Part shown: one piece after another, positions 581 to 60,896 of the stretch
Position numbering within the stretch: the first letter of the stretch is position 1
Layout of the letters: every line of letters begins with the position of its first letter
The notes under the pieces: model-generated
Database searches by the model: none
What the model saw: only the letters and a program-made list of their open reading frames with translations
What the model was told of the DNA's origin: nothing
Translations under genes and position numbers: made by a program
Assembly (NCBI GenBank): GCA_003194525.1
Contig: NBIV01000074.1
Span: 118,876 to 182,875, forward strand
Reading direction: 5' to 3'
Source of the DNA: Gracilariopsis chorda
Taxonomy: Eukaryota; Rhodophyta; Florideophyceae; Gracilariales; Gracilariaceae
Length of the DNA stretch: 64,000 nucleotides

Positions 581-585
581 CACTA
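581..585. repeat. Target-site duplication CACTA (right copy)
   Basis: The five bases after the LTR end are CACTA. The same five bases precede the family-A LTR that starts at 60897, and the old gypsy reading frame resumes across them (see findings). Confidence 0.7.
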
Positions 586-1745
586 ATGACGTCAGAACTC
601 GACAAATCCAAAAGCCATTTCAAGGCTTGGTAGGATGATGAACGTTAAGGACGTGCGCTCTAGATAAGGCCGAAGAATGGTCAAGCATACAACTGCCAGA
701 CATTCTCGCTCTGTAGCAAAGTAGTTCTGCTCCGCTGAAGACAGAGTCCTACTCCAGTATTCATTTGGGTTACAGATTCTGTCAAGCTTTTCTGTCAAGA
801 CACACCCTATCTGTCCAGCACTGGCATCAATTACAACCTTTTCCGCAATCTTGCCGTTGGCAGCGCGAGGATTGGTGTATGCATGAGAGCGTGCTTGAGC
901 GCGTCAAATATCTCCATCTACTTATGAGTGAGCGCAGGCAGCTTTGAATAATATTTCTTCGTGTTAAGCGTCTTTAACGAGGCATTCATATTGGCAAAAG
1001 GTCTGTAGACGTGGCAAATCTCGAGGAAGAACCGGAATTCAGTATGTGTTGTAGGTGGCGTCTCCTTTTTAAGAGCCTCCAAGTTGTTGGCGGGTCCTTT
1101 AAGTAACACGGATGGAATCACATGGACAAGCTAATCGACCGATCGCTAAAGGATAGGAAATTTCGTCAACTTCAGAGCTAACCCTTATTTCCGAAAATGA
1201 TGAAAATCTCATCAACGTGACGTACGTGGTCTTCCACGGTCTCCGAAAAAATGATAAAATCATCTATGTACACCAGGCAGTGCTGCCATTTATATTCTGC
1301 CAGGAGGATGTCGACGGTCCCGTGGAGCATGGCGGGCGCGTTGCATAGCCGAAAGGGCATCCTAACGAATTGATAGCTCCCTGCATAACATATAAATATC
1401 TTTTTGTTCCAATCCTCGGTTCCAAATGGCAACTGCTAGTAGCCACTGTTGCAGTCATACATCGTGAGGAACTGGCCATTGCCCACTCTGTCTAAACAAT
1501 AGTCTATACGGAAAGAAAGATAGGTATCTTTCACGGTGAGAGGGTTGAGACGCCGATTATGTACGCAGAAACGTAATCCACCGTCCCGTTTAGGACGGAA
1601 GACAACTGGGTTTGCCCGTTCTAACCTCAAAGGTTCAATAACTGCTGCTCCAAGTGTGCGCTAACTTCGGTGCGCTCATGCTCTCTCACCTTGGGCCCTG
1701 CTCTATAGGGTTGAGAGTGCACGGGGGTTGGCCTTCGCAACCATC
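581..1745 (-). pseudogene. Decayed Ty3/gypsy pol: reverse transcriptase to RNase H
   Basis: Minus-strand fragments in several frames match a gypsy pol in the right order. From 1745 down to about 1640 is the linker before RT, with a YRAGPK-like motif. 1630-1436 holds RT motifs including FRPKRDGGLRFCV, equal to the VPKADGSWRFCVDYRRLN block of element A. 1432-1178 has the palm with VYIDDF, the catalytic YxDD. 1121-918 is the connection/thumb. 798-592 has the RNase H motif YWSRTLSSAEQNYFATEREC. Several frameshifts and stops separate them, so it is dead. It is closest to the element-A pol type. The C-terminal end is cut at 581 by the family-A insertion and appears to resume below 60896. Confidence 0.85.
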
Positions 1746-2084
1746 TTGATACTTTGGGGTGATCCTTGGATGTCCCTGCGCCTACCGCTCCACACATTCT
1801 TAAGCTTACTAATCATTTTCATCACAATGCGACGCATCTTTTTCGAGACTTGTTACAAGGCAAGGGAATCAAATTGATTCGTTTCTTCCTGAGTCGCTTC
1901 CGACTTTTGGTCGTTGGGAGCATATTTCGGCTGTGCCGCACCACATGTCGGGCGGTCCTGAGCTGGGTCGCTGAAAATGGAGGGTACGTCCGACGGACAT
2001 AATGGAACTGCAGCACAAGGACTTGTCCTTTGCAGTGGGTTACTTCATGGTCAGCTACATTACCAACGATGAACAAAAAAGTTC
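1746..2084. other. Junction between two head-to-head gypsy remnants
   Basis: About 340 bases lie between the start of the minus-strand RT fragment and the first recognisable RNase H residues of the plus-strand element. Frames on both strands are open for short distances, but none resembles a known protein. It is probably decayed retroelement sequence at a rearrangement junction. Confidence 0.4.
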
Positions 2085-3735
2085 TATTTATGGGAACGCT
2101 TGCAACAAAGGTACGCTGGCTGGAAAAAATCGTTGAGTTTGACTTCTGTTTTCAGCCGATCAAAGGGAAGTCCAACTTTGTCGCAGATACTCTTTCAAGA
2201 TACCCGAAACACGCTGAGAACCCTGAAGTAAATAACCGGTCACAACCTCAGGAAGCAATTCTCAGAACCTCCAAAGTCAATGGTATATCCCAGCTTGGTG
2301 AAGTATCCAAAAAAGATAGGCGCGCATTCATCAACGGGTATGTGAACATCAAGGAATTCAGAAACCTATGCAAATCTCCGCAGGGCCTATTCTACAAACA
2401 AAACGGATTTTTGCATAAGGAAGGACGACTCTGCCTACCAAAAGAAGAAGTAAGACTAAAGATATTACAAGACTACCACAATCAATCTATATCAGCTCAC
2501 CTAGCATTTAAGACAACATATGAAAAGATTCGGAGACTATACTACTGGAAATCGTTAACCCAAATGATTAAGGAGTACGTCAAATCATGTCTGAAGTGTC
2601 GAGAAACAATATCAGGAACCAAGAAACCCCAGGGCCAACTACAACTACTTACTCCTCCGAGAAATAAGTGCGCCGAAATTTCAATTGACTTCATCACACC
2701 GCTTCCCAAAACGAAACATTGGAGTAGTGCATTTTACGTAGTAGTAGACTGTCTATCTAATTTGACCAGAATTATACCAACAACTTCACATTTCACTGCA
2801 GTCCAGACTGCAGAACTCTATTTCAAAAACGTATACAGACATCATCGCCTCTCCGAAGTAATTATCTCCGACAGAGACTAGCTTTTTATGAGCAGCTTTT
2901 GGAAAGAACTATTTCGTCTCGTCGGTACTAAGATAAGAACATCAACAGCATATTATCCACAGACAGATGGTCAAACCGAGGTAATGAACAAAACAATGAA
3001 TAAATGATTAGAACATACGTCAAAGTTGAGCAATCTAATTGGGATGAACACCTCATAGACTTCGAATTCGCATACAACTCGTCAGAGAACTCAACCACAA
3101 AGTTTACACCCTTCTTCTTAACGTATGGGGACCATCCAAGAGTACTACCGCTCGATACCATCATTTCAGAAAATTATGCAGCTCTCAAGTTCTTAGAAAC
3201 GATGAAGCAAGCAAAAATTGAAGCAAGAACACAGATTGAAAAACAGACCCGTTACTCAAAGTCATACATCGATAAGAATCGATCCCCCTGCAGAAAGTGA
3301 TGTTGTCCACAAGAAACATCAATGCGGACCACATAGGAAAGAAGTCCAAACTACAAATCCGATACTGTGGACCGTTCAGGATTACAGAAAAACTTGGTCC
3401 AGTACCATTTAGTCTAGACTTGAGTCATACAATGAAGTCAAAAATTCATGATTTGTTCCACGCTAGTGTTCTCAAGCCTTAACGAGAAGACAAATAAATT
3501 CGTACCGAGCCTGATTATCCCATCCCGGTAACATTGAAGGATCGGACAGAAGAATATGAAGTAGAATGTATTGTCAACCACAAAAAAAACGGGCCAGACG
3601 ATTTGAATTTCTCGTCAAATGGCTTGGATACCCAAGTAATGAGAACACTTGGATGAAAGAAAGAGACCTCAAGAACTGCAAAGCACTGCTTTTGCAGTAT
3701 AAGAAGACGAATGTACTCATACCGAGAAGGAGCTA
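2085..3735 (+). pseudogene. Decayed chromodomain gypsy pol: RNase H end, integrase, chromodomain
   Basis: The frame from about 2090 gives the end of RNase H (KGKSNFVADTLSRYP), then the integrase zinc finger (His pair, then CLKC), then a catalytic core with ISIDFITPLP (first Asp), ISDRD (second Asp) and [10 protein letters not shown] (Glu). A TAG stop sits at 2879-2881. A +1 shift near 3000 leads into the EFAYNSS block, and another near 3297 into the C-terminal SH3-like region ending at 3482. A further frame gives a chromodomain (FEFLVKWLGYPSNENTW) at about 3575-3690, after a slip in an A-run near 3583. Gag, protease and RT are missing upstream. It is nonfunctional but has a clear family identity. 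Confidence 0.88.
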
Positions 3736-3763
3736 AGCATCCCCCTCTCAAAAAACCTTGAGG

Positions 3764-4207
3764 ATGAATCAGAACACCAATGACGAAGGCGCGAGAGAGT
3801 TTTCCAACAATATCAACCTCGGCGGAAGATCTTTATACCACTGGATGGGTGAAATCACTGCCATTGAAGCAACCAGGCTACGTCTTTGCTGGGCAGCCTA
3901 CCATATCTCGTTCTAATTCGCCCAAATCCGTGGACCCTTCTACATCGAAGAGAACGACATACTGCCGCACCGACTCTTCTTCAAATATGATAATGGAATT
4001 CTGACGATTTTGTACGATATGTTCGAAATGCCTACCTTCTACTATATGGTCGCGCGTGATGAACACCTCACGGGTGAACGAAGCTTTACGGAGAAAATTG
4101 ATGAAATCCTGAACCGCTTCGAGGATGAAGGTCAAGTCCCATTCACCTTGGAACCTGAAAATCAGCATGACCTGTTCCCTGTTCCTCCCGAATCTGGGTT
4201 TGTGTGA
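3764..4207 (+). pseudogene. Accessory ORF downstream of the chromodomain, one stop codon
   Basis: From the ATG at 3764 the frame is open for 147 codons to TGA at 4205-4207, apart from a single TAA at 3914-3916 (codon 51). The product is acidic in its second half and rich in aromatic residues (motifs LYHWMGEI, YIEENDILPH, FEMPTFYYMVA). I do not recognise the family. It lies between the chromodomain and a candidate polypurine tract plus LTR, so it is probably a third gene of this element and not a host gene. It has only one stop, whereas pol next to it is broken several times. It could also be the C-terminal part of a longer pol. Confidence 0.45.
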
Positions 4208-4259
4208 GTCTAAGAAAATCTCCGTCACGAGTCGGATCGAATCTACTGGTAGGGGAGAG

Positions 4260-4913
4260 TGAAGTTAAAATTAGTTATTAGTTACCTTTCTTTGAATATA
4301 GTTGGCTCTAGCATCAGTTCTTACGTGCACAAACCAGCTATTTTTATTTTCTTTAACTCCTGGAGAGATCTGTTACCCATTGCCATGCCGAACTGGCTTC
4401 GAAGCCGAGTTGACATCTTCGTGACGCTCTATCAATATGAAATGACAACATGCTTATTTCAAAGAAGTCTTGGTTTACCATGTGGACATATTGGCTCTAA
4501 AGTACACGTTGTCTACTACTCATAACATTGACAGACCTTTCAAACGGTGCAGCAGGGATCGAACGGTCCTGGACGATTCCCGAGGGAGTCGTACCAAGTC
4601 ATCACTGGCACCATGGGTCCAGGCCAGATCATCAAAGACCTTGTTTGATGACAATTCATCAGCATTTATGGAATTTGCCAAGCCATCAAACCACTGGATC
4701 CGGCACTGAACCCGGTAAACCAGTCACGTATGGAGGCCAGCACAAACACCAAGCATCATGCCATTTAACCCGGACGAATTCTCATTGAGTAATGGCACTG
4801 ATAGAACTAGAATAGAAACTCTATATAAACCTTGATGGATGTTCCAAACTTTTCAATAGGATCATCACCATCTACTTCTCACCAATTCAACCACTGCACC
4901 TGTGCTCTTAACA
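4260..4913 (+). repeat. Candidate 3' LTR of the chromodomain gypsy remnant
   Basis: A purine run (AGGGGAGAG, 4251-4259) precedes TG at 4260. The block contains a TATA-like CTATATAAAC near 4822 and ends TAACA at 4913. It aligns over most of its length with the reverse complement of 56735-58631, where the match is interrupted by an insert of about 1.2 kb. Shared blocks include GCCGAGTTGACATCTT, AAGTACACGTTG and the TATA region. Two inverted copies with the same ends support an LTR of about 650 bp. No TSD could be tested because the 5' end of the element is missing. Confidence 0.65.
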
Positions 4914-5843
4914 CCTTGCACTAGAGCCCAGGTTTGTACGTCTGCTATGTCGGCGCAGTCTTGGACTCGCAGTAAGCAATGCTCACTAACCATGGTACGA
5001 GAGCGAACCGAAGTGTCGGGGGCGACACTATAGTTTGGCTGTTTACTCATACGGCAGAGTGGCCAGTAGCCCAACGGGCTGAGCGACAGCGCCATAACGC
5101 ACTAGCAGCGTCCGAAGGCCGGTAGCAACGAGAGCTAAACGGGTAATACCCAGCGATTGTCGGACAAGAAATGGACCTCGACTATAATTGTGCATGCTAT
5201 AGCCTTTATTCTCGTCGTCGAGAATGGTGTACTACGTAGGATACCATACCACGCGTGATTTCCTACACGCAGAATCACTTTTATTTGTGCACGCTTATCC
5301 AACGTGCATCTACGTACTTCTCTGGGAATAAAATAAACTTTTAAAAGTCGTTCTTTATTCTTAGAATCAAGCTTAACTGCAAAATCAGAGCCAGTGTCTT
5401 AATTAAAATTTGTAACGCCACCAAGAATACACATGTTAAACCACCTGGCAATGTGATAAACTGTCCTGACCATGGTCGATACCAATATTCCTTCACAAGC
5501 AAGTTGCCAAATCACAAGTACTGGCTTTGATCATGCAGAGTGAACTGGATGAATGCAACATTTTGTTCTTGAAGTCCGCAAATAGCTGCATTTCTTTGCA
5601 CGTAGTATATTTTTCGCACCTGATCTCTCCCGTGATCCCTTCGGCTTTTTTGGTTGGATTATTCGTTTTTTATTGTCTCTTTTATGGTGAATTTCTTTTT
5701 CTTCTGTGTGGCTTGGAAAGGTGCGAATGTTTGGAGAGATTTCGACAGAAAGCTTCTTATTTAGTACCCCCCACGTGGAAGCAGGAACCGGTGGTCCCGT
5801 ACAATGTTCTGTTCATTTCACGACACGCTGAAGTGGTTCCTTT
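4914..5843. other. Intergenic, no gene recognised
   Basis: No reading frame here resembles a known family. Frames at 4865-5095 (-) and 5527-5916 (+) are short, and the latter runs into the element-A LTR. The sequence is AT-rich from 5200 on and is the target into which element A inserted. Confidence 0.6.
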
Positions 5844-5848
5844 TGTAT
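5844..5848. repeat. Target-site duplication TGTAT, left copy of element A
   Basis: TGTAT at 5844-5848 directly abuts the LTR start and is repeated at 17301-17305 after the other LTR. A 5-bp duplication is normal for Ty3/gypsy integrases. Confidence 0.95.
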
Positions 5849-6762
5849 TGTGGTGCAATCCCGGTGTGGGAAAGGCACCCAAGGCAGCTCGAAGCCTTGC
5901 TCTCTTGGAGAGGTAGGCCCAGCTGGGTAGAGCCCTCCGTGTCCCGTATGACGGGTGTAACTCCGTCGGGAGCCTGGATGTACCTCGGAGGTTTAGGGGT
6001 TAGAACGGGTCGGAACCACGGCTGGTCCGGAAGTAGCCTGCGAACAGTGGAACAAAAGAGGGAAAGGGACCACCCGACGGGGGCGTGCGGAAAGCGGGAA
6101 CAGACCCCGGAGGGGGGGTGCCGATACACACACACGAACACGCACCGCGCGGCGGTTAGGGGATATGAGGGGAAGGGATGGTCTCACGGTCTCACGACAC
6201 ACGTCGGTAATATCAATACCCAAAACTGGGGCGGAGATAGGGCCTGTACGGGCGGTCACACGACAACAACGAATACCACGAGTGGTCACAACCCACTGGG
6301 TACGACGAGCACGGTCTCCTCGGTGGTGCGAGTCGGGTGAAACTATCGGGCAAGCGGTGTACCTCCGCGAGGAGTTAGACACTTCGCATGGCGAATAGAG
6401 TCAGAGCCGAACTCTTGTTACTTTTCTTGGTGAGCTCGCCGCCGTGCGGCCGACGCTCAAGTACTAGCTCAGTGCAGTACAGTAGGTAGTGCACTAGCCT
6501 AAGTAAAATTAACCCCTAAACTATACTAAAATAAGTAGCCGTTTTGGGCCTCCTGGCCGGGGCTGTAGCCACGTGTCCACCACCCTTGCCAGGCAAGTAC
6601 CACAAAATATGAATGTTCCCATAACCACCCTGGGTAACCCGACCGCTAATTAGCCCGGTAAACGGGGGCTAAAATTCATGCATCCCGCTTCATCGCTCGC
6701 ACCGAGTACACCTCAGATATGAGTTTCACCATCGCCCGTACGCGGGAATGTATTGCACTACA
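5849..6762 (-). repeat. Element A 3' LTR (in element orientation)
   Basis: On the plus strand it starts TGTGGTGCAATCCCGG and ends TTGCACTACA; on the element strand it runs TGTAGTGCAA to GCACCACA. It is 914 bp, the same length as the partner at 16387-17300. Reading frames inside it on both strands are shadows repeated in every LTR copy. Confidence 0.96.
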
Positions 6763-6773
6763 CATCCCCCTCC
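6763..6773 (-). other. Polypurine tract of element A
   Basis: The element strand reads AAGGAGGGGGA immediately before the LTR start TGTAGTG. This is the expected place and composition for the RNase H-resistant primer of plus-strand DNA synthesis. The same tract is present at 61817-61827 in the second copy. Confidence 0.9.
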
Positions 6774-6812
6774 TTAAGGGCCGAAAACGAACGTGAGTAT
6801 AAACGTGAGGAG

Positions 6813-8654
6813 ATGAGGCGCGAGGGTATAAATAGTCCCGACAAGGGAATCGCCGAGATACCGGTCCCCCGTACCAACACGGTTACAACTGATCAACCCT
6901 CAGTACCTTCTTCAACAGACTCTGCGCCCCTCTCTACTATGACCAACACTCCGTTTTCGAACAACCCGCCTGCGGGCGCCCCGCAGGGGACTTCCGCGAG
7001 CGGACAACCTTCCTTCGCGACGCCGGGGTCGTGGGTTCGTCACCCATCCTCTGGGTTCCTCTCCTTGCCTCTGCCTGGAGGATCGTCTCATGTTCCAACC
7101 TTGGATGCCTCGGATGCCGCGAGTATCGCCGCCTGGAATTCCGCTCAAGCGATACCGATCACTGCGACCGCCGCCGGCTGGGTGTCACCATCGACACTTT
7201 GGGCCCGCAATCCCCGGGAAGACGCTCTCCTCTTTTCGCGTGCGCCCTGGTTCCACCCCACATGGGTTTCCGACTCGGACCTCATCGACTCCTATGTGGA
7301 GGAGGGCGAGCTCCCAGGGGGACTAGGCCGGGATATGGTCAACTCCTTCGACTGGAGGACGCGTATCGCGGTAGAGCCACAGTTCCTCGCACGGAAGCGC
7401 ACCAGATATGGTTTCGAGACGCTGAATGAAGCCCGTGCCGGGATGGCCAAGGTCGCCTACGACCGTCTCGCCCGCGCGAGTTATCCGGATGAGCTGGTAC
7501 CAACGGAATACAGCTTTGACCTCTCGCGGTACCGTACCTACGGTGAAGTCTCATACTGCGAGAACCTTGCTGCCTACCAGCCATCTACACCGTTCCGGTC
7601 CACTCCAATAGAAGCCGGGATGCTCCTCTGGAGGCGCCCAATTCTGCGTGCAGAGTTCCGATATCTTCGTCGTCCGAATCATCGCGGATCCTTCTTCGAC
7701 CGACTCCGGTTTGAGCGAAAGGCGCGCTCCCGCTTCGGGTTCCTGGTACCATACCAAAATCTCGAGGTCGAGAGGCTCCGTCCATCCGCGATGCGCGGCC
7801 GGTATGCACCTCTTCCCCATTGGTGGAGCAGGTTCGAAGTCCCGAGGGGATGCTTTGCGGAGATGCCTCCGTGCCTCAGCTACATCGGTTCACGATTAAT
7901 CAACAATCCGGATTCCGGTTACTGGAATCTCTTCCTCGCCGAATGGGCTGCTCGCGTTGCCGCATTTCTCCTCTGGGAGGTGTACGACAAGAACCGTCTG
8001 TGGTACATTCCTCCTCACCTACGCCAGGTTATCCGCCGATTGGATCTCTATATCCCTCTGGGATCCGAAGCCAATGTGGATGAGCTTCAGTGCCTTCTGA
8101 ACACCATCGATATGGTTAACTGGGATACAGTCCCAGTCTCCAACGTCCCTGACGGTGAGCCTTCCAGGCATGATCGCTCTCCAGGCCGGAGAAATCCAAA
8201 CGCTGGCAACTTCGTCTTCTATGACCCTTGGGAGGTATCCGTGACTTCACGGGCTCACGCGCTAGCGTTACGCGATGTACCACGCTCCGTTCCGCGAGGC
8301 CACCCGGTTGGGTTCATGTTTTCCGATGACTGGCACGGTTCCTACGAGGATGATCCAATGGTGGATGACGACCCCGATGAGGTGGAGGAGGCCGTAGCCC
8401 CGGTAACGGCGATGGTCGACGATCTCGACGGATCCGGCCAGCATGTGGCTGCTCCAGATGGCTGGAATATGGCCGCCAGTGTGGCTGCGTCTCCGTCTAC
8501 CGCATCTCCGGTCCCCGTGGACCCTCAGGCCGTTGCCCTCAGGGCTCACCTCCAGTCCATTGGAGTGGTTGCGCCTTCCAACCTCACCAGCGTGAGCGAG
8601 TTATTGGCTTTCGCGTCTGCGAACTACCAACCGCCAACGAGCGGCTCATCCTAA
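6813..8654 (+). CDS. Antisense ORF carried by element A, function unknown
   Basis: An open frame of 613 codons runs from the ATG at 6813 to TAA at 8652-8654, opposite in strand to gag and pol. The frame extends upstream without ATG into the LTR. An in-frame ATG at 6939 would give 571 aa and fits the TATA box at 6827. The N-terminal 130 residues are Pro/Ser/Thr-rich. The middle is rich in Arg, Trp and Tyr (motifs WFHPTWVSDSDLI, PPHLRQVIRRLDLYIPLG). An acidic stretch near the C-terminus (DDDPDEVEEAV) precedes an Ala/Ser/Pro-rich tail. I see no signal peptide, membrane segment, zinc knuckle or catalytic motif, so an envelope protein is unlikely. A second copy at 61867-63708 differs at three bases. 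Antisense extra ORFs between pol and LTR are known in some plant gypsy elements; a homology to those is not shown here. Confidence 0.7.
   Translation: MRREGINSPDKGIAEIPVPRTNTVTTDQPSVPSSTDSAPLSTMTNTPFSNNPPAGAPQGTSASGQPSFATPGSWVRHPSSGFLSLPLPGGSSHVPTLDASDAASIAAWNSAQAIPITATAAGWVSPSTLWARNPREDALLFSRAPWFHPTWVSDSDLIDSYVEEGELPGGLGRDMVNSFDWRTRIAVEPQFLARKRTRYGFETLNEARAGMAKVAYDRLARASYPDELVPTEYSFDLSRYRTYGEVSYCENLAAYQPSTPFRSTPIEAGMLLWRRPILRAEFRYLRRPNHRGSFFDRLRFERKARSRFGFLVPYQNLEVERLRPSAMRGRYAPLPHWWSRFEVPRGCFAEMPPCLSYIGSRLINNPDSGYWNLFLAEWAARVAAFLLWEVYDKNRLWYIPPHLRQVIRRLDLYIPLGSEANVDELQCLLNTIDMVNWDTVPVSNVPDGEPSRHDRSPGRRNPNAGNFVFYDPWEVSVTSRAHALALRDVPRSVPRGHPVGFMFSDDWHGSYEDDPMVDDDPDEVEEAVAPVTAMVDDLDGSGQHVAAPDGWNMAASVAASPSTASPVPVDPQAVALRAHLQSIGVVAPSNLTSVSELLAFASANYQPPTSGSS
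6827..6834 (+). promoter_or_regulatory. TATA box for antisense transcription in element A
   Basis: TATAAATA lies on the plus strand just inside the 3' end of the element, about 110 bases before the ATG at 6939 and 14 bases after the ATG at 6813. A start about 30 bases downstream would give a short leader and favour 6939 as the translation start. The motif is conserved at 61881-61888. Assignment rests on sequence and position only. Confidence 0.45.
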
Positions 8655-8990
8655 GTCAGGATCCTGGACCGTGGCACACACACCTGATATAGGTTAGCGC
8701 TTAACGCTCCATAGCTTGTGGTAAACGACTTCCTTCTTCTATATCCGTATGTCCGGACTCTTCTTTTTCTTCTTCATAGCATCTTCATGCTGGACCGCTA
8801 GGCGGTATTCTTCATTAAACCGTTACTTCGGTCGGACCGCTAGGCGGTGTGACGTCCAATGACCATTGGTTTCCCTATCCAGTCCATTACTTCGTGTAAC
8901 CTTCTGTAGCCAGATCTCTTCCTGTGTCCTCTTCTCTTCGGAGACTTCTCTTCCGTCTTCGGAATCTTCTGCATAGTGCAGTGTATCGTC
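8655..8990. other. Spacer between convergent ORFs, with two identical palindromes
   Basis: This is the shared 3' region of the antisense ORF (ending 8654) and the chromodomain ORF (ending 8991). The palindrome ACCGCTAGGCGGT occurs at 8794-8806 and again at 8836-8848, each a 5-bp stem with a 3-base loop and preceded by GG. Pyrimidine-rich TTCTTC runs lie beside the first. It could help transcript ending or processing on either strand; this is inference. The segment is unchanged at 63709-64000 as far as the window goes. Confidence 0.5.
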
Positions 8991-9335
8991 CTACCCAACC
9001 TGGGCCATGTCCAAAGTGGATGGGAGTGGGAACCGCGTCCGGCGGTGGTAGGTTATCACCTTGGAACGAGGAAGGTGCTGAATGGGCTCCCATGTGTCCT
9101 CTTCCGGGGGGTATCCGTACCATCGGATTTGGTAAAACCACACTCCTTTGGAGTCCAGAACATGATCCACGATGTGGTCAACGACAAACTCCTGGTCGTA
9201 CGTAGCCGGCTCCTGACCCGTCATGGCAGGGCTTAAGGGGAGAACCCTGTGAGGGGACTTGCCTGAAATTGGCGCGACCCTGCGGGCAAAGTCAGCTTTC
9301 CTCGACGCTGCGAGTGCTGGGACTTGATACCGCAT
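8991..9335 (-). CDS. Separate chromodomain ORF of element A
   Basis: A 114-aa frame from an ATG at 9335 contains a chromodomain at about residues 48-100: EFVVDHIVDHVLD, then FYQIRWYGYPPEEDTWEP and a C-terminal helix HLPRSKVITYHRR. The aromatic cage region and the YP-E-TWEP signature are present. In chromoviruses this domain is fused to the integrase C-terminus and steers integration to modified chromatin. Here it lies about 440 bases after the pol stop, in the same frame as pol. It could be a genuine separate protein, be joined to pol by splicing, or have been cut off by a stop. The intact frame and young age of the element argue against random decay. Confidence 0.75.
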   Translation of the reverse strand: MRYQVPALAASRKADFARRVAPISGKSPHRVLPLSPAMTGQEPATYDQEFVVDHIVDHVLDSKGVWFYQIRWYGYPPEEDTWEPIQHLPRSKVITYHRRTRFPLPSTLDMAQVG

Positions 9336-9776
9336 TGCGGTCTTTCCGCTTCCTAATCCTCTCCTTGTGGGGGGGGGGCCTTCCGTTCTAACCGGATTCC
9401 CCTATTGACGCGCAGCTCGCGAGCTCTTCTCCCACGCGACCCGTGCAACTCTGGTGAGTTTGACCTTTCACGGTGAGGGAGGCGGTTCACTACGGTTCCG
9501 ACGCCAGGAGGCGGATTGCCATGCATCACACACTGTGATTGGCTGGCCGCTGGCGGCAAGTGTCGCGCGCGGTCTTTCCACGACGCGGGTCTTGACTGTA
9601 CTCCTGACGCCGGCCGGCGGTATGTACGTGTACACCTTTCCACGGTTTGGAATTTCGGGCTTCGTCCGCGTGACAGTGGCGTCACAGTGTCCATTTGTAG
9701 GGCTCTGCGGTAACGCACGCAGTGTCAACCACACTCTCCGTGTCCGCGGTTGCTTTTCAGCTCACCACGAAACTGG
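9336..9776 (-). other. Gap between pol and chromodomain ORF
   Basis: It contains a G/C homopolymer run near 9369-9378 and several overlapping short frames on the minus strand (9353-9718, 9468-9734), none of recognisable family. It may be an untranslated spacer or an intron connecting pol to the chromodomain. I could not find a decisive splice pair by eye. Confidence 0.4.
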
Positions 9777-49690: not shown

Positions 49691-49702
49691 TGCTACTCTC
49701 TT

Positions 49703-50630: not shown

Positions 50631-50640
50631 TGGTAGCATC
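50631..50640 (+). other. Element D primer binding site
   Basis: TGGTAGCATC abuts the LTR end, identical to element C. Confidence 0.75.
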
Positions 50641-51039: not shown

Positions 51040-51435
51040 CCCCCCCGGACACCGACAAAGAAGAGTGTGCTCTCCGTCCTCCCGCCTGGCACTAAGGCAG
51101 GTGTGCGCTCTGCCACCTTCCTCCCCCCTCGCGGACACCGAAAAAGAAGAGTGTGCCCCTTTCCACCCCGGCCGGGCATTAAGGGCAAGAGTGCGCCCGC
51201 TCTGCCACCTTCCCCCCCCCCGCGGACACCGACAAAGAAGAGTGTGCCCCCCCCCAAACCCCGCCCGGGATTAAGGGCAAATGTGCGCCCGCTCTGCCAC
51301 CTTCCCCCCCCCCCCCCCCGCGGACACCAACAAAGAAGAGTGTGCCCCCCACCCCCCCGGCATTAAGGGCAAGTGTGCGCCCGCTCTGCCACCTTCCCCC
51401 CCCCCCGCGGACACCAACAAAGAAGAGCGTGCCCC
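51040..51435 (+). repeat. Tandem repeat array in element D leader
   Basis: Five imperfect units of 85-98 bases. Each has a C-run, then GCGGACACCGACAAAGAAGA, then GTGTGCCCCC and GCATTAAGGGCAAGTGTGCG. Units start near 51045, 51133, 51223, 51321 and 51407. The unit sequence is unrelated to that in element C, but position, period, base composition and variable C-runs are alike. Confidence 0.85.
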
Positions 51436-52124
51436 CCAGCCCCCCCGCACGCACTATATCACAACCGGGTAAGAGCCAACCGTAAGACCTGAGTAAGGCC
51501 TCGCCACCGATTACCCCGTAAGGGAAGTTCGACACATAAGACGAGAGAACAAAAGTCCCGAACAGGGCCTCCGCCGCTATTACCCCGGAAGGGAAGTTAG
51601 CACTTGGCAGAGCTAAGATTCGCAAGCCGAGTACCGGTTGGGAATCGACTGGAGACTTGAACTAAACCGGCGGGTTGCGCACTTGCCGTATAACCGGCTC
51701 CGCTGGGGTGAGTATTGCGCTCGTTCTGGGACAGGGTGTCTCGTCGTTCGGCCCGGACCTTAGTAAGGACAAGAACTTTATACGGAGTACATCTCGCCGT
51801 GCAAGCAGCCGCAAGGATCTAGAGGGAGTGTATTGGTGAAGGCATATCTACTGGTCATTAACCATTCCCTGTACGATCCGTACGTTACACGCACCTTAGT
51901 CCTGGATTGCGCAGGACATAGACAGGCAGCTGAAAGCGCATCTCACCGAGAGAGTCTAACTCGGAGCCAGGGGTCTGACCTTTAGGGTACCAGAGATAGT
52001 ATCTCTTGTCAGTGGGCCCGGCTACTCAAAGAGTGGCAGAAGGATCCCTCGCCCGGTAGGGGACCGGTGAAGTATATAAATGATCTGCCCCTCTGGATAA
52101 GTCTCGCGTCGAGAACACTCCGCG
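51436..52124 (+). other. Conserved untranslated leader of element D
   Basis: 51550-52124 matches 31600-32159 of element C. A duplicated block occurs just before it: AAGGCCTCGCCACCGATTAC near 51494 and GGGCCTCCGCCGCTATTACC near 51567, each ending in AAGGGAAGTT. The GTGAGT at 51718 and the GTCAG at 52012 occupy the same places as in element C. Confidence 0.6.
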
Positions 52125-54835
52125 ATGGACACAGAGCGAGAATACGACAATAAAAGAATACCCCGACTACAGGGGAGCGCCGACTACTACACTTGGCGCA
52201 TCTACGTAAGGGATCTCATGCACTCATCGCAATCCCTTTTCGTCCTCACCGAACCTCGACCCACAGAGGTAAGCGCAGCAACTCGAAAGCGCTGGGACGA
52301 TGCCGATCGCAAAGCACGCTCCGCGATCGTGCAGAACCTTGGAACACAGCCGATTGTCGCTGTATCAGAACTCCTGGAAAGGGAGTACTGCTCCGCTTTG
52401 GAAGTGTGGACCAAACTAGAGGCCACATATAAGAAGGACAACATACAGTCAAAGTTGAACCTTCGCCAAAAGCTTAGCACCATGGCATATGAAGACGGTG
52501 AGGACATACAAAATCACCTCATTACCCTTGAAACCACTTTCTTAGACCTCGCACGCCTAGGCGACCCAGTGACAGATAAGGAAATGACCGCCACGTTACT
52601 TCGTTCCCTTCCAGAGTCACTGATGGCCATCACACTACTGGCTGACGCTACAAATATGGAATACGACCAGGTGGTATCCCTAGTGCGATCAGAAATGGAC
52701 CGTAGGGCTCATCGCCCAAACAACACTACGGCATCGAAACCAAACGACCAAACACACACCCATACCCGGCCGCAAAGAAGTCTTCACAAGGCAAAAGACA
52801 GCACACAAAGCCAAAGAAAAGAGGCGTAAAATGTTGGAACTGCGGGCGTATCGGACACATTCGTTCCGAATGCTGGAGGAAAACCAACAACAAGTCCTCG
52901 GAAACCACTCAACACGGTAAGAACAAGAGCAATAGCACAAACTGCTCGTGGGATTCAAACCGAAACGGGACTAACCAACATGGAAACCATCACAGGATGC
53001 CAACCGCAACAACAACAACAACCACAACATGCAAAACCAAAACCACCGCGGATTCGTAGCGATCGCCAACGCCAGCGTACATTCCGAGCATCATACACCG
53101 ACATGGTTGGACTCAGGAGCAAGTCACGTCTTCATCAAAGACAAGTCCCTGTTCTGGAAATATCACACAACCCCACCACAAACCGTGAATACTTGCGATA
53201 ATACATCCGACAGCGTGGGACTTGGGAAAGTAAAGTTACCTTTCGGCGCAAACGGTGTGATGTTACCAGCAAAGCATACCCCAAGCTTCGACTTCAACCT
53301 AATCTCCCTCTCCACTCTGGCATCACAAGTAGACCTCGAATTTTCCACTGAGGCAGAAACCAGCTTCATTATAAAACACAAGAGCACAGGAGAGCTATTC
53401 TTCACATCAAGGCCAAGACAACTCTACCCACTTCCCAACCCCTTACCCTCCCCTATGGCTCACATGGCGATGCGACAGATTGGTGACAACCCTCACGACT
53501 GGCATGAGAAACTCGGCCACCCTGGCCGAGACAAACTACTCAAGTGCGTTGAGACATCTCACGGGGTACCACGATTCTCAAGTGAGGAGGTACGCAACAT
53601 CATATGCAACCCATGCATACAAGCCGGAACAAAACGGGCTCCACTGCAACAAATTGAAAAAAACTGCGAGCAGGAACCTCGAACTCACTCACACCGATCT
53701 CAGCGGACCCATCATGCCACCTTCGCTGCAAGGATCGCAATATATGCAAGTCTTTATCGACGACAGGACAAGGGAGAGTGCAATTTACTTCCTTAGTAAA
53801 AAGACACAATTCTTCCAATCCATTCGTTGGTACAAGGCTCGCGCGGAAAACGAGGTGCCTCCGAATCGAATGTACCGCGTTCGACTTGACGGGGCGGGTG
53901 AGAATCGCTCCGATGACTTCGTCACATATGCGATGGAGAATGGCATCATCCTTGAATTCACCCCACCATATGCGCATCAATCAAATGGCGTCGCGGAGAA
54001 GACCATTCAAGATCTTTGGAAAGTTGGCCGCACCTTCCTGTTTGAGTCCAAGTTACCACAGGAACTCTGGGAAGAGGCAATCTCTCACGCAAACTATCTT
54101 AGGAATCGACTACCAAACCAACGGGTAGACATGAGAGTCCCGTACACCCTGTGGTTTGGTGAGAAGCCTGACTTCACCAACCTATTAAAGTTTGGACAGC
54201 CAGGACATGCGTTCATATACAGATCAGACACCGCACCGAATAAGAAGCTACTACCCCGGGCACTTCCTGGTAACTTTGTTGGTATACAAAGTCCCCGCAC
54301 TTTTTACAGGGTATACATCCCATCGACTGATAAAGTAATAAAGTGCCGCAAGGCATACTTCAAAGTAAGCAAGGACAAACTACCATCCTTCAAAGACCTG
54401 ATCGACTTCTCTTCCCTCCGAAGGCAGCATGCCGAGGTGAACATGGATGAAGATTCCGAGGAACACCTCGATGCATCTCTGGCACACTGTCTCGTATCCT
54501 TCTCGCGCTCCGAAGGTCTTAAGGATGACGGCAGAGTACCAAAGAACTTCGACGAAGCGCGGAAAATGAGAGGATGGGACGAAGCTATCGACAGGGAGTA
54601 CAATGCTTTGGTAGAAAGAGGGACATGGAGGCTTGTAGACAGGAAGCCGAGGATGAAACCTTTACCATTCCTTTGGAGGTTCATTGCCAAACTCCTTAAC
54701 GAAGACCCACCTCGTATTCTACCTAAGGCACGTTGCGTTGCACGGGGCGACATGCAACGCCCCTACATCGATTTTGACCCTGAGACCCTATACGCACCGG
54801 TTGCGAGACTCGAAACCTTCATCGCGTACGAGGCG
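52125..54835 (+). pseudogene. gag-pol: Element D gag-pol remnant (gag, protease, integrase, part of RT)
   Basis: The ATG at 52125 starts the gag domain, open to 52829. The CCHC knuckle CWNCGRIGHIRSECW lies in the -1 frame from about 52832. The protease WLDSGASHVFI is in a third frame (53029-53796). From about 53660 the integrase runs on in the frame 53480-55066, with ELTHTDLSGPI, VRLDGAGENRS and HQSNGVAEKT (D,D,E intact), then the start of RT (VERGTWRLVDRKP, CVARGDMQ) up to ARLET near 54822. Here the Trp at KMRGWDEAI is intact, which identifies the stop in element C as a Trp codon change. After 54835 the frame reads unrelated sequence. Confidence 0.88.
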
Positions 54836-54838
54836 GAT

Positions 54839-55080
54839 GTGTATATCTTGGCACAAATTTATTTCCCAATAAAGCTCCTCAGACGTCTTGTGTGTCTGTC
54901 TACCCGTTATTCTATACCGAGGTTAAGAATATGTAGTATGATGTTTAAGACGTCTTCATTGTACAGCCGGACGTCTTTCATCTGTTTTGTCTTGCTCGGT
55001 TTGTCGCGAGCAAGTCTTTTGTTGTTTGATTTATTGAAGCAAGTCTTCAGCCTATCATATAGCTAGTGGAGTGTACTAAA
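54839..55080. other. Unassigned, possible LTR-like sequence
   Basis: It begins TGTGTATATC right where element D breaks off. Repeated ACGTCTT and AAGTCTT words occur, but no partner copy or coding frame was found. It may be flank of the older gypsy into which D inserted or a rearrangement junction. Confidence 0.3.
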
Positions 55081-55084
55081 GTCT

Positions 55085-55445
55085 GTTCTATTCTTGCGGC
55101 AAAGTACTACTCGTGAGCAGTTCTACCAATATATCTGAGTGCTATGGAAAGCACCTTATCGTTTGACGTTTCTTCAAGAAAGTTTCAGATGTGGGTGACC
55201 CAGCTATCAATATCCTGATTTAGAGTAAACAAAGAAGGCTTATTGATCTTTGGCGTAGACGAAGATATGCCTCTTGACCTAAGAACGAAGGTAAGGGCAG
55301 ACTCCAGCGATGAGATCTTCTGTTCGATTTCACTTTCGAGTATTTCCATTCTATCACATGTATCTTCCAGTGCATGTCTAAGACTTTGAGTGATCTGGTT
55401 TGCACAGGACTGCAGAGAGGGCGTGGCATTGCCCAAGGTTCCCAA
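55085..55445 (-). pseudogene. Gag-like fragment with coiled coil
   Basis: The minus-strand frame from 55445 has a heptad-rich stretch (SLRHALEDTCDRMEILESEIEQ and following, kept here in part), then KPSLFTLNQDIDSWVTHI. After one TGA it continues NFLEETSNDKVLSIALRYIG. The pattern (coiled coil, then a substrate-like W..F...L block) is that of retrotransposon gag before the capsid. It probably belongs to the gypsy copy whose LTR and primer site lie at 56.7 kb. Confidence 0.45.
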
Positions 55446-55893
55446 AACTACGTAAAATCAAGTGAAACAGGAAAAGCTTGCCAAATTTGTAAATGTATTG
55501 GGCCAAAAAATTGTATCTCGGTAAATATAATTCCAATTTCTTCTGCAGCTTGTCAAAATAAAAATTTACGATGTGATTAAGTAGTTTCAGGCAGTAGATA
55601 GATATTTTGGGGTCTCGAGTTCAAATCCTTTAGATGTAAGAACTGGGATGCTTATCGGAGTGGCTGAAGTGGAGGTTCTTCAATCGCGTTTACAATATGT
55701 TAAGTAATTAAGGACAAAGTAAGACCTGTACGGCTAGTTCTTTTCTGACAGAGATTGGTAATCTTGGCGCAGCGAAAGCTCGAACCCAGCCAGATATGGT
55801 AGCTTAAGGGTAGAACGACCAATTTTTATTTTTCACAAAATTGTGTTTAGCGGGCTTAAAACAGCCGTTAAATTTTTTATGTTGACGTCTTTG

Positions 55894-56160
55894 CTAGTGT
55901 GTTTTAGCCAGTCGATGCTTATTGCCCTTTTTTGGTTCTTTGAAGTGCTGCCATTTGTTGAAAGATGGTATACGGCAAATATAACGACCAGGTGGTGACG
56001 TTTCCGATAACGCCTTATTTCTGTGCTTGGTACCGTGAAGGTGTTTCTCGAGTTGTGTGCGGCTGTTGAAGCGTACATTGCAGTTTTCACACCTTGATGT
56101 ACGGAGGCGACATCGAATTGTACGCTTCTGCTGGCGGCGGATGCGATCGTTTTCAGTATG
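55894..56160 (-). CDS. C2H2 (U1/matrin-like) zinc-finger fragment without ATG
   Basis: An 88-codon stop-to-stop frame reads a basic stretch (RRQQKRTIRCRLRTSR), then CENCNVRFNSRTQLEKHL and HGTKHRNK. This is a CxxC, 12 residues, H, five residues, H finger, of the type seen in RNA-binding U1/matrin fingers. There is no ATG in the frame. It lies downstream of a primer-binding-like site on the same strand, so it may be part of a retroelement gag; an exon of a host gene is the alternative. Confidence 0.4.
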   Translation of the reverse strand, partial: HTENDRIRRQQKRTIRCRLRTSRCENCNVRFNSRTQLEKHLHGTKHRNKALSETSPPGRYICRIPSFNKWQHFKEPKKGNKHRLAKTH

Positions 56161-56720
56161 CTAAAGTTGGTGTTTCCTGCGTCACTGATCGGCAAGAAAA
56201 TCCTGCGCTTCTGATTGGCTGAGGCGTACGCTTGACGAATAAGGTGCCTGACTGTGTAGACCGTTGCAGGTTTTCCCCCAACAGAGGCTTGTTGACGTTT
56301 GTCTAAAGTTTCTGGTTCTTGTAAACTTGCTCAGGAGATGGTGGTTGAGTACCAGGCGTCTGGTGGTCAAGGGAAACGAGGTTGTCGAATGGTTCAAATG
56401 ATAGCGAACGGGGTTTGGAGGAGAGGGTGTGGTCAGCTACGGGGGTTCAAGGGTCAGCACGGTCCACGGATGGTGAAGGCTGCGGTTTTGACTGTGGCTC
56501 GAAGAATGCGTTGGTATTGGTGTATTCCGACGGCGGAGACGGCGGAAACCTGGATCGAAGTATTCAGCGCTCTGGAAACACACAATAAAATTGGTCGGTC
56601 ATAAATAAACATTCAGTATGATCTGGGTCTCTGTAGCCCATCCAAACATGAGTAGTTTTGTGTAGCAAGATCGACCAAGGCTGGATGGTCACCAGTTTCA
56701 GGTAAGTGCAATACTTATTT
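56161..56720 (-). other. Probable retroelement leader or decayed gag N-terminus
   Basis: It lies between the primer-binding-like site at 56733 and the zinc-finger frame. Short frames exist on both strands (56299-56604 plus, 56182-56397 minus) without recognisable motifs. Confidence 0.3.
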
Positions 56721-56733
56721 GCAAATGTTACCA
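56721..56733 (-). other. Primer-binding-like site next to LTR (minus strand)
   Basis: The minus strand reads TGGTAACATTTGC one base after the LTR end TAACA. It differs at two bases from TGGTAGCATTCGC of element B at 19979. This identifies 56735 as the 3' end of an LTR followed by the start of an element. Confidence 0.6.
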
Positions 56734-56734
56734 A

Positions 56735-58631
56735 TGTTAGGAACGGAGATGCAATGGTTGAAATGGTTAGAATAGTCGATGATACTGATCCTAGTTGAAG
56801 GTAAGAGCATCCATATGGTTTTATATAGAGTTCCTCGCTTATTTCTATCAGTGGCATTAGTAGATGCGAAATCGTGCTAGTTTATCGGCATTATGCTTGG
56901 TTTTCTCGTTCGCCTCCATATGTTGGTGGTTTACTAGGCTCAGTGCCAAACCTAGTCAATTGATGACTTGGCGAATTCCGCCAGCCCTGATGACTTGTTT
57001 TATGACTGTGGTAGAACGAACGTACGGGCGTCAGATTATGACAGACGACAGCGAACACCGATGCACGATACCGTGGGAGACCGAAGGGTGGACAGATAGC
57101 ATGAGTGCACCTGACCGGCACGGTGCACCTGGGGACTGTTGGGACGGGATACACGTGTCCGACCGGAAGGAAGGGCAGACGTGCCAGCAAGACCCTACAT
57201 AATTTTTAATTAATTGTTAGGTAGTACGTACGCAGTCCCGCCATTGGTCCATATCTGCCGAGGTGCTTCGTCGCTGAAGTGCACCTCGGGGCCGGCGGGT
57301 CTACTTAGCATGACAGTACCACTCGACCCCCATGAACGAGTAAATGCAGACGTCATCCCACCAAACGGACTAGTTTCTTGTTCTAGTTGGCGATACAGAC
57401 TGCCCACTAGCTTGTACTACTACTCCGCACGGTAATGCACGAGCGTTACACGGCCGCCAACACTCTACGCGTGCTCCCTGACCACGCCTGACGCAGTTGC
57501 CTGTGCGGCTCCGCAGCCCTCGACCGGCGTCTCCTGACATCTACCGTTCAGATCACCGAGCCCATCTTCCGCCCGGGCTTTCTAGGAAATCCTTCTACTG
57601 ACCACTGAGGCACGTCCGACCGGTCTGCATCTTGTGCTAAAGCATTGCGCTTCCCCACAATGCCTTGGCAAGGATCAGTAACAGGTAGGGTGTTGATGAT
57701 ATTGCACGAGTCCATGGTGACCGCGATGAGTTGGCGCGGATCTTTTGGGAATCCTTCATGAACATTTGATCACTGTGTGGTATAACGGAACACAGTCAAT
57801 GACCAAATGGGTAGTTCGTGTGGACCTCGGCTGTAGGGAGCGCCGGGTGGGCTCGACCTAGAAGGGGAAAAGAGGGCTACCGGTAGGGTCTGTGGCCGCA
57901 CAAACCAATACAGGTGCGAGATAGTCGGCTAGTTCTACGTAGCAGCGTGGTAGTCCCTAGGTATCGTGACTGGCGGACTAGCAATACCTGATAAGATCTT
58001 GGATACCAAAACGGTTGACAGTAAAAACAAGTTGGTATCAAATTATCGAAGGGGTGCCTACCGTTTACCTTGACGCGGGAGGATGCTGACGCTCACCTTA
58101 AGAGTGGGCGAGCTTGACTCCCCGTGGACATAGCACCGGGAGTCGAGCTCGCCCATTTACGTGTGCCACGTCTGAGTTACACCCTAGTGGTGCACCTCAG
58201 TACTGTAGCTAGCAGTTAGAACTATTTCTAAAAATTAAAGTTAAATATTAGGACATACCGCCCTGGTCCAATCACCCACCTGACACACCGAACTGGTATT
58301 TTGAACACCACTTTGGTAGAAAACCCCACTATACGACACACTGCTATACCATATGAGGTGTCTGTCAACGTTGCAAGTGGTAGGCAACGTGTACTTCGGA
58401 GCTAACTTCATCCATGTGGGCATCCCAGACTTCTCTGATATAATTATGTTGTATTGTCATATTGACAGCATGTCACAAAAGATGTCAACTCGGCTTTGAG
58501 GACAGGTACACATGTCATATAGAAAGCCAATGTCTTCAGGGGATCCAGTAGAATAGAACTAGGAAGACTAGTAAAACTGATGATGGAGCCAATTTCACTC
58601 AAACAAAGGTAAGTACTAACCAAATATGACA
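56735..58631 (-). repeat. Old gypsy LTR interrupted by a 1.2 kb insert
   Basis: In two blocks (about 58631-58250 and 57010-56735) the minus strand aligns with the LTR at 4260-4913, in the same order and including the TATA region (CTATATAAAA near 56820). The LTR ends TAACA at 56735. It follows an integrase-chromodomain end (58650-60896) and precedes a primer site and gag-like fragments, so one LTR serves two element bodies. Confidence 0.6.
57010..58250. other. Unidentified insert in the old LTR, with strong hairpins
   Basis: This part has no counterpart in the LTR at 4260-4913. It contains a 17-bp inverted repeat with one mismatch at 58106-58122/58138-58154 and a perfect CCGAGGTGC/GCACCTCGG at 57258-57266/57281-57289. 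No reading frame is recognisable. It may be a small nonautonomous element; exact ends and a target duplication were not established. Confidence 0.4.
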
Positions 58632-58649
58632 ATGAGCAGCAAGATTGTC

Positions 58650-60896
58650 ACGTGCGACATGTTTTCTATTTCCGATGGGAATTTTTCGGTTGGCGGTATT
58701 CTGCACCATCCTCTCAAGCTGGCGTGCTCCGTACGTCTGACCAGACAGTGATACCACATCTACCTGCCAGGTTTCCATGCGTTCATGGTGAGTCAAAGCC
58801 GCCTCTTGGGCTTCCGAAAGCGGAGAACTTGCTACGTGCCGAAGACGCACGCCTGTGGGTGTTACATCCATATGTCATTACCGACATTTGCGAAGTAGCC
58901 AATGGATACCGTGCATTGGCAAGGACGTAACACGCCCAAATGGTGTCGCAGTGGGGACCATGGATGAATATGTCTCTCTGACATTACGAAAGCAGGGCGC
59001 GTTATGCAATCGAGCTGGGCAGTGCAAAGAACTGGTACAAACTACGGATGTATTCTTTCGCATGGCGGTTGTGTACTTGCTGCAGATTTCCAACCAAACT
59101 AGCAGGAAACCAACGATGGTATTCCATCGCGGCATTGGGTGAACCGTCACCCTCTTTGAGGAATACGTTAAGCCACTTCGGTCTCAGGATGGGCTTTGTT
59201 CTTATCGGGTACGGGGATGTTCTGCTTTCGGCAGTACCGAAGCACTGGGTTACATGGTAAATACTTCGCATCGCGAAAGGTTTTTTCTTCTGGCGTAAAC
59301 CCTGATCATCTTACCTTACATTGGTGGTCCTCTGCTGTTCCTTGGGTACGACCCACGATCCGCCTTATGACCACTTCGTCACTTTGCGTGTCCGCTGGGA
59401 GCTTGGAAGCCCCGACGACAACGTAGCCAAGTTTAAAACGCTCTTTGCGCCCATTGTTTTTAATGAGAACCGTGTTGTGTCCTGTGCCAGTGCTCAGCAC
59501 TTTAAAAAGTCCTTTCACCTTCCAGGGCACCTTTCGTGAGACTTGCTCACCCGATACCCTAGCTTTCTCGGTATCCACATTCCTGCCGATGTACACATAC
59601 GCCCTGGGATTTGGCATATTTCGCTCGACGACGGGTGCGTTTTATCTTGGTTTGTAGCGCTTTTGCACTTTATTCAAGGTTTCTATAGCTCACAGAATGA
59701 GTTGGCGCAGATGTGCCAGGTTCTGCATCTTCACCTCTCCAGTCTTTCGCCTGTTCAGGGATTTAATACGTTATTGAACCAATAGTTCGGGAACCCGAGG
59801 GAGTACCAACTCAAAATGGGAGTGCCTCATGCTATCATGCAACTGGTTGTTGTAGCAAAAAGTCCGCGCATCGCTGTGAGGCTCCCATATGTGCTGATTT
59901 CCAGCGACAAACTGCGTCTAGTAGGGCAAAATGATTCTGTTGAACCTCTCAGCTTGGCTGCCTGGCATTTGAATGATACGTCGATTTAAGGAACTTTATG
60001 ATGCAGAAGATTCGGCACACACTCTGAATAACTTCGAGGCAAAGCCGGATTTGTTGTCAGAGAGGACAGTAACGGGGGGGCGGTACACAAACGCCCAATG
60101 GGTTCTGAAACGCTTCTGTGGCTGTGAAAGCACTACCTGACAGTAACAGGACGGTCTTCGTCAATGTTTAGTAGCGATCAAAGATCACTAATAGGTAACG
60201 ATCACCTCGCGCTTTGTCGCCTGGATCAGGCGCAGTACGTCGATGGTGACACTTTCCACGGCGCAGTCGCCAGTAAGAGTTTCAAGCGTGACGCATTTCT
60301 TTTTAGAGAGATTCTATGGTTTCACACAGGAGTCACATTCATTGACCATTCGATACACATCGGCAGTCATGCTTGGTCAACACAATCTGGGATGCATGGT
60401 CGCGCACATCCTTCGTCGGTCCGAATGAACTGCCGCACGCGGGTAATGATGCATATGCATCATGCGATCTCGGAGAGGCTTAGGTACGAGCACCTGCTCA
60501 CTTTGGTCCAACCTGGACCGACGGACTAGTAGTCATTCTCCATGAGTATAAATTAAACCCTTCCAGTTATTCAAGGATTTCTCCAGCATCTCTATACAAA
60601 CTGGACTAGTGGCCTGCTCTGCAAACAGCTCCTCCTATTACAAGTCTGTCACTTCGTGTTCTTCGAGGTCGAAAATACCATCCATCGGATGCACGACCGC
60701 ACAAAACGGTTCTTGGTCTTGATGAGCCTCCGGCTTGGATAGGAAATAAGGAATGTTCTCCGACGGTTTGATGGTGGTCTCACAAACCATCGGGATGCGC
60801 TATAGTGCATCTTCAGCCAGGTTCTCCAAATTCTTCTTTTAGATGAATTCAAATTCGTGCTCCACGATGCGTAGCCTCCACCTCGGTAATCCACTA
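58650..60896 (-). pseudogene. Decayed gypsy pol: RNase H end, integrase, chromodomain
   Basis: The minus strand from 60896 begins at GLPRWRLRIVEHEFEFI, the end of RNase H, then a LAEDALYRIP block. The integrase zinc finger ends CDSCVKP (about 60330), and the core keeps VTIDVLRL and TVLSDNKSGF. The C-terminal module WKVKGLFKVLSTGTGHNTVL lies at about 59500. A chromodomain (EVVIRRIVGRTQ, QCKVR, TGA in place of Trp, SGFTPEEKTF) runs over about 59390-59290. Many stops and shifts are present. The frame at 60896 continues that of 581-1745 across CACTA. Confidence 0.8.
60892..60896. repeat. Target-site duplication CACTA (left copy)
   Basis: CACTA directly precedes the LTR start at 60897 and equals 581-585 after the LTR at the left window edge. 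Confidence 0.7.

Follow-up and report, generated by a model that had tools for sequence, protein, structure and literature searches.

The window analysed here is a stretch of 64,000 nucleotides from the red alga Gracilariopsis chorda that holds an NB-ARC-WD40 receptor-like gene within a tandem segmental duplication and has at both edges long terminal repeats (LTRs) of one retrotransposon family, called family A below. It covers positions 118876–182875 of contig NBIV01000074.1 (C74) and thereby reaches the last base of that contig (182,875 bases). All genome searches used the 91.3-Mb assembly of 1,081 contigs, of which C537, C633 and C296 are further members. Seven of its contigs, one of them longer than 540 kb, each have a match to the phycobilisome-linker family, which suggests a red alga, and in 14 control genomes this family was matched in Synechococcus only. 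An oomycete source was dropped on this ground and because the internal transcribed spacer (ITS) was unlike that of oomycetes. As a whole, the locus is probably explained by a tandem array, a left edge that is the product of an exchange between LTRs, and a right edge that is a redundant tail of the contig.

Tandem units and family-A insertions

C74 carries a real tandem segmental duplication, in which a partial unit a, a unit b and a unit c (window 581–60896) follow one another as long direct repeats of a single molecule, with independent later events in each copy. From one copy of the insertion site S1 (target CACTA) to the next, unit b is 49,017 bases long, and unit c, with a doubtful tail counted in, has 60,316 (window against C74:1–119,999). 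The right part of unit a is present, starting at about C74:37.3 kb, and its left side is more diverged.

Units b and c differ by substitutions at 0.89–1.81% in all seven blocks compared (window 581–38,900). Nested in c but not in b are the family-A element A2, at the site S2 (target TGTAT), and a chromodomain gypsy element (target CATAC), for both of which b keeps the empty counterpart. Conversely, a 5.6-kb insert at C74:66608–72204 (target CACCC) is nested in b, and its empty counterpart is in c. Because b and c differ in both substitutions and nested elements, the duplication is not a product of the contig end. An earlier note on the window had proposed either a tandem duplication or a circle, with a period of about 71.8 kb. 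The duplication stands in kind, with units a, b and c carrying their own substitutions and nested insertions on one contig, whereas the spacing of the recurrence is 77,951 bases, from the start of the element A1 (C74:101821) to that of A3 (C74:179772). The point near 72.3 kb where the note expected the right-hand element to end lies beyond the end of C74.

Family A is a Ty3/gypsy LTR retrotransposon with direct 914-bp LTRs, 5-bp target duplications (CACTA and TGTAT) and the order reverse transcriptase (RT), RNase H and integrase. Its minus-strand domains in Pfam are RVT_1, RT_RNaseH, H2C2 and rve, whereas at E ≤ 0.01 nothing in Pfam matches a 680-amino-acid (aa) open reading frame (ORF) that occupies the place of gag. 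Another ORF of 633 aa lies antisense to the polymerase genes beside one LTR and is open in A2 (6753–8654, plus strand) and A3 (61807–63708, plus strand); it has no Pfam match at E ≤ 0.01 and no PDB match at E ≤ 1.

Six family-A LTRs lie in C74:101–182 kb, namely two in A1 (LTR1 and LTR2), LTR3, two in A2 (LTR4 and LTR5) and the first one of A3 (LTR6). A1 and A2 differ by 15 substitutions in about 11.45 kb, LTRs included. A2 sits 5.3 kb beyond S1 in unit c, and S2 is empty in unit b at C74:58065–58069 and in C537. The chromodomain element of unit c is complete-looking and absent from b and C537, with an empty site in b at about C74:60507–60518.

Between 38,000 and 60,896 of the window, there are 147 sites at which b and C537 differ, and c is like b at 97 and like C537 at 50 of them. 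The likeness is arranged in stretches: c follows b at 30 of the 32 differing sites in 39,125–41,004, C537 at 48 of 49 in 41,595–44,663 (the alignment being ambiguous in the WD40 repeats), and b again at all 66 in 47,524–60,833. C537 carries the receptor gene of c with 1 substitution in 4,954 bases (three blocks, 41,470–46,500) and then leads to an empty S1.

Over 7.0 kb, C633 differs from the upstream part of c by 2 substitutions and 12 gap openings. Of this stretch, 2.8 kb are b-like too (1 substitution), and further on C633 has unit a as its best match (38 substitutions in 7.3 kb). C633 (17,010 bases) and C537 (27,691 bases) thus add two more mosaics to the copies of the unit. They are near-identical to c over different stretches and may be either unplaced units or alleles. 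A diverged relative of the receptor region lies at C296:45008–57510 (81–97% identity in the matches). Both this relative and unit a are without about 11.3 kb that is present in b and c (window 27.5–38.8 kb).

Table. Features of the window and of the adjoining part of C74. Positions are those of the window unless preceded by C74.
Feature	Position	Strand	Basis or remark
A1	C74:101821–113273		site S1, CACTA; between units b and c
LTR3, solo LTR, 914 bp	C74:118542–119455; its right 580 bases are window 1–580	-	both junctions read directly
Block X', 5,268 bp, right of S1	581–5848		second copy of X (C74:113274–118541)
Old broken Ty3/gypsy remains in X', RNase H end	near 595–903	-	
Integrase fragment in X'	2030–2878	+	Integrase_H2C2 match
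TGTAT, left target-site copy of A2 (S2)	5844–5848		direct reading
A2, LTR retrotransposon, 11,452 bp	5849–17300 (C74:124724–136175)	-	LTR4 5849–6762, LTR5 16387–17300
TGTAT, right target-site copy of A2	17301–17305		direct reading
Complete-looking Ty3/gypsy element with chromodomain, identical 222-bp LTRs	19755–24670	+	target CATAC
NB-ARC-WD40 receptor-like gene of unit c, 1,314 aa, ATG to TGA	41070–45014	+	open frame, Pfam
Nine near-identical 43-aa (129-bp) WD40 repeats	43533–44693	+	repeat comparison
Contig tail, probable redundant copy of unit b (C74 about 85.6–104.9 kb)	44664–64000		no substitutions except one in LTR6
CACTA, left target-site copy of A3 (S1)	60892–60896		direct reading
LTR6, edge LTR of A3, 920 bp	60897–61816	-	comparison of the six C74 LTRs
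A3 interior, ended by the contig end	61817–64000	-	comparison with A1 and A2

The shared site and the two edges

The LTR that ends at window 580 is directly followed by CACTA (581–585), and the LTR that starts at 60897 is preceded by CACTA. Lower-identity relatives apart, the genome has four copies at 98–100% identity of the 2-kb flank that follows 580, and likewise four of the 2-kb flank that precedes 60897. On C74, the two flanks abut at a natural empty S1 (52804–52808), where their matches at 50810–52808 and 52804–54803 overlap by the five bases CACTA. They do so too on C537, where the matches at 7516–9515 and 9511–11509 overlap by the same five bases. At both empty sites, one gapless minus-strand frame runs through ...DLSSSDV(I/T)SGLPRWRLRIVEHEFEF..., and the old gypsy element read in this way is broken elsewhere. 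Since the flanks abut at the empty sites and the frame is unbroken there, S1 is one family-A insertion site, and the earlier note was right in assigning both flanks to it and in joining the gypsy frame across CACTA.

The note was also correct that both edge LTRs have C at window 369 (LTR position 703), which is present in LTR1, LTR2, LTR3 and LTR6, whereas both LTRs of the complete A2 have T. This C is the base of A1, carried by LTR3 and A3. Still, the two edges are not the sides of a single 11.45-kb insertion, as had been supposed, and the LTR at 1–580 appears to be a recombinant solo LTR. On its left it adjoins the final bases of block X (TGTAT) and not the left half of the RNase H, and the copy of the insertion with both S1 flanks is A1, which lies left of the window.

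LTR3 has mismatched flanks, with TGTAT, the target of A2, on its left and CACTA, the target of A1, on its right. It is also chimeric, as it has G at position 64 like LTR4 and unlike LTR2, and C at position 703 like LTR2 and unlike LTR4. An origin as a solo LTR by recombination within one element requires matching target-site copies and was rejected. A target site from each parent together with a chimeric sequence is what marks a recombinant between two elements. The TGTAT-LTR string occurs at two places in the genome, LTR3 and LTR4, with up to two mismatches allowed. In the search for family-A LTRs, the best 40 of 270 candidates were scored and all their matches were 99–100% identical; two of them, LTR3 and LTR2, continue through the CACTA flank to base 600.

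Between the blocks X and X' there are 4 substitutions over 5,268 bases and no insertion or deletion (indel). As judged against unit b and C537, one substitution is private to X and three to X' (at site 2030 with one side readable). Because of these private substitutions and the absence of indels, X' is more than a second use of the same reads. Unit b and C537 have counterparts of X' as well, at about 98.5%. X' holds other sequence besides the gypsy remains and the integrase fragment, and its part at 2109–2580 is repetitive, with many more genome matches at 85–92%.

We infer with good support that the left edge is the product of an unequal exchange between LTRs of neighbouring elements. The right LTR of A1 would have recombined with the left LTR of A2, and the exchange would have duplicated X and one LTR, a block of 6,182 bp, into the order A1-X-LTR3-X'-A2. 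LTR3 would then be the crossover product and the LTR at the left edge of the window. Such an exchange predicts the target sites of LTR3, its chimeric bases and the pair of X and X'. The crossover can be placed only between positions 64 and 703 because just two positions are informative.

Segmental duplication by inter-element LTR recombination is named as a known rearrangement in the consulted part of the REANNOTATE report (PMC2672092). LTR3 is like that in having one target site per neighbour and a chimeric sequence. Unlike the usual outcome, which is the deletion product, LTR3 would be the duplication product between two still-complete elements.

At the right edge, the tail of the contig and unit b align without a single substitution in 16,013 bases (all seven blocks, 44,710–60,890), where about 160–210 would be expected at the divergence of units b and c. 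The rest of the contig beyond 60,890 has a single substitution against the unit b side, adjoining a gap in LTR6. The tail shows 21 one-base gaps against unit b after 44.7 kb, and all 20 of these that were tested sit in runs of at least two identical bases. At the three flank gaps that are open to a vote of the other units, a, b and C537 all contradict the tail. When the six LTRs are compared, 12 one-base indels and 1 substitution occur in LTR6 alone, and the remaining one of the 13 gaps in the LTR is private to LTR1.

A3 also shares the bases of A1. T at LTR position 638 is found in LTR6 and LTR1 alone, and the A3 interior has no substitution in 2,184 bases against A1 and 3 against A2. In the genome, S1 has four left flanks at 98% identity or more and, with X' included, four right flanks; without X', three right flanks face four left ones. 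A genome-wide search with the 2-kb right flank found no copy of it beyond A3. Thus, with X' set apart, the tail is a left flank without a partner.

The lack of substitutions, the homopolymer indels, the bases shared with A1 and the unpaired left flank are the reasons to read the tail as a redundant copy. The right edge is accordingly best described, with a fair degree of likelihood, as a misassembly of the contig end that repeats the junction of b and A1, and this part of the overall explanation has moderate support. The region at about 44.7–64 kb, A3 included, would render the unit b end and the A1 junction a second time, appended by the assembler at the contig end once no unique sequence was left, and would not be a second insertion. 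The misjoin that the earlier note had listed as an option is therefore the one that best fits the right edge.

Alternative readings of the edges

The right edge may instead be real, which has clearly the smaller chance. A recent unequal exchange or a long conversion tract would have joined the left of c to the right of b within the identical stretch at about 44.7–47.5 kb, and the insertion of A1 would have been copied as A3 while the array grew by one 78-kb repeat. In fact, the last switch falls in about 2.9 kb (44,663–47,524) that has no site differing among b, c and C537. Moreover, the same type of exchange is seen at LTR3, C633 shows mosaics of units elsewhere, and the T of A1 at 638 is kept in A3. 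On the other hand, zero substitutions in 16.0 kb combined with one-base gaps in single-base runs is a pattern of consensus errors and not of mutation, and the right flank to be expected beyond A3 is absent from the assembly.

Several observations weigh against our explanation of the two edges. Errors do not just accumulate toward the contig end, since its final 2.2 kb are free of indels, and at four gaps (51,221–53,661) b is the sole voter. Divergence close to zero across a few kb can have a biological cause, because C633 is near-identical to both c and b. C537 was dropped as a simple true continuation of c, since c follows b and not C537 at most of the differing sites in 39,125–41,004. Evidently, either the units exchange sequence naturally or the assembly mixes them elsewhere too. 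If the sample is heterozygous, alleles could mimic several of the patterns, and the assembly could have merged the missing right flank with X. Finally, the assembler could have looped between LTRs of A1 and A2, since a jump from LTR4 back to LTR2 would produce an equally chimeric LTR with identical target sites and look like an exchange product. The true order would then be A1-X-A2, with X-LTR3-X' made by the assembler, perhaps from two mixed haplotypes. We regard such a loop as unlikely, although it is compatible with a misassembled right edge: the four private substitutions of X and X' without any indel are unlike the error pattern of the tail, and a 914-bp LTR is short for long reads, which we presume were used.

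It is very improbable that units b and c recombined to release a circular molecule of about 78 kb, into which the assembler passed from the chromosome. The contig is lasso-shaped, with an end that repeats its middle, but a linear tandem array or a contig-end repeat yields the same shape and nothing indicates a free circle. A circle closed at the contig ends was rejected because the end of C74 overlaps with C74:86–105 kb and not with its start. The first 36 kb of C74 hold no comparable match, and against the array they give none of at least 300 bases at E ≤ 1e-30, except about 443 bases at 69%, inverted, at 32.2 kb.

That family A inserted twice independently at one and the same base of S1, in two units, has a negligible chance. 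The family is indeed recent and numerous, but the left flank runs without substitution for more than 16 kb. A second insertion at S1 was rejected by the T of A1 at 638 and by the match of 2,184 of 2,184 interior bases to A1. Hence, one contig holds a likely product of LTR-LTR exchange and a probable contig-end duplicate, and the two are told apart by target sites, private bases and the type of error.

The receptor-like gene and its relatives

The receptor-like gene of unit c resembles the nucleotide-binding leucine-rich-repeat receptors (NLRs). Its NB-ARC match in Pfam has an E of 5.5e-14 and 52.5 bits against a cut-off of 23.5. It also matches weakly an APAF-1-like winged helix and, in the PDB, APAF-1 itself (E 0.0016). 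Up to E 1, the Pfam matches of the gene include neither a HET nor a NACHT family. A genome search with the receptor gave at least 86 matches, fragments included, among the best 60 of 177 candidates.

The number of GH-type repeats varies among the six close copies, being 5, 5, 9, 9, 3 and 7 in a, b, c, C537, C633 and C296, respectively. When the first and the last repeat of each array are excluded from these 38 units, 26 inner units with 19 distinct 43-codon sequences remain. Their variation is concentrated at positions 4, 5, 7, 16, 23, 40 and 41, and the changes there are almost all nonsynonymous. Position 22 is less variable, with silent changes dominant, and position 25 is weakly variable.

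A similar make-up is found in the hnwd genes of the fungus Podospora anserina (het-d, het-e and het-r), which share with this gene an ATPase of the nucleotide-binding oligomerization domain (NOD) type followed by near-identical WD40 repeats in a number that varies between copies. The repeat unit of hnwd is 42 aa. Its codons 7, 9, 25 and 27 we take to be repeat positions 5, 7, 23 and 25 here, in a HET-E register that agrees with the published table. These codons are reported to be under positive selection in the part of that study at hand (PMC2873952), and the consulted text of another gives a count of seven selected positions (PMC12222747). As far as these sources extend, variation falls at matching positions, which in the present gene are 5, 7, 23 and, less strongly, 25.

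Among the four positions that vary most, three (5, 23 and 7, with 16 tied) coincide with the four hnwd positions, with a chance of 0.0013, given a cut chosen post hoc, non-independent units and a partly presumed register. Among the seven most variable positions three coincide, with a chance of 0.0105, again with a post hoc cut and non-independent units. Because the cut was chosen post hoc and face positions vary in many WD40 proteins, this coincidence is a lead and not proof of selection.

The gene differs from hnwd in several respects. It has NB-ARC where the ATPase of hnwd is given as NACHT in the available text (PMC1805685), no HET match, units of 43 aa, and further variable positions at 4, 16, 22, 40 and 41. 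It does have the hnwd-type combination of a NOD-type ATPase and WD40 repeats that are highly identical within the gene, but not the NACHT and N-terminal HET of HNWD proper. As the HET and NACHT matches are absent, we do not file the gene as an hnwd member, and by its predicted domains it is similar in make-up only.

Clusters of NLR genes grow by tandem segmental duplication, with repeated NB-ARC units, exchange from copy to copy and nested retrotransposons, and the array here can be likened to them. It differs in its red algal host and in having WD40 instead of leucine-rich repeats. The same pair of domains is known from red algae, as NB-ARC and WD40 proteins of Pyropia yezoensis and nucleotide-binding-site (NBS) and WD40 proteins of Porphyra umbilicalis are among the putative resistance (R) proteins in the consulted part of one report (PMC6928737). 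That part makes no mention of repeat identity, a tandem array or site-specific variation for those proteins.

Tentatively, this red alga may have a growing tandem NB-ARC-WD40 array in which repeats are shuffled between copies and diversified at the face positions of fungal allorecognition receptors, with LTRs and unit exchange supplying the recombination. Red algae are capable of fusion between individuals, and parasitic red algae pass nuclei into their hosts. If the suggestion is true, the array would be a convergent, fast-evolving sensor of self and non-self or of pathogens in a lineage far from the fungi. If the array and the receptor repeats hold up, this would be a red algal locus for following the expansion and the diversification of immune-type receptors directly.

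Other repetitive sequences were noted in passing. Remains of Copia-type gag and RT lie at about 30378–36568 and 51552–55066 of the window and are 79–86% alike in the ungapped stretches found. Elsewhere in the assembly, matches to 5.8S ribosomal RNA lie about 14–18 kb apart on C120, C465, C767, C776 and C1047, which suggests long ribosomal DNA units.

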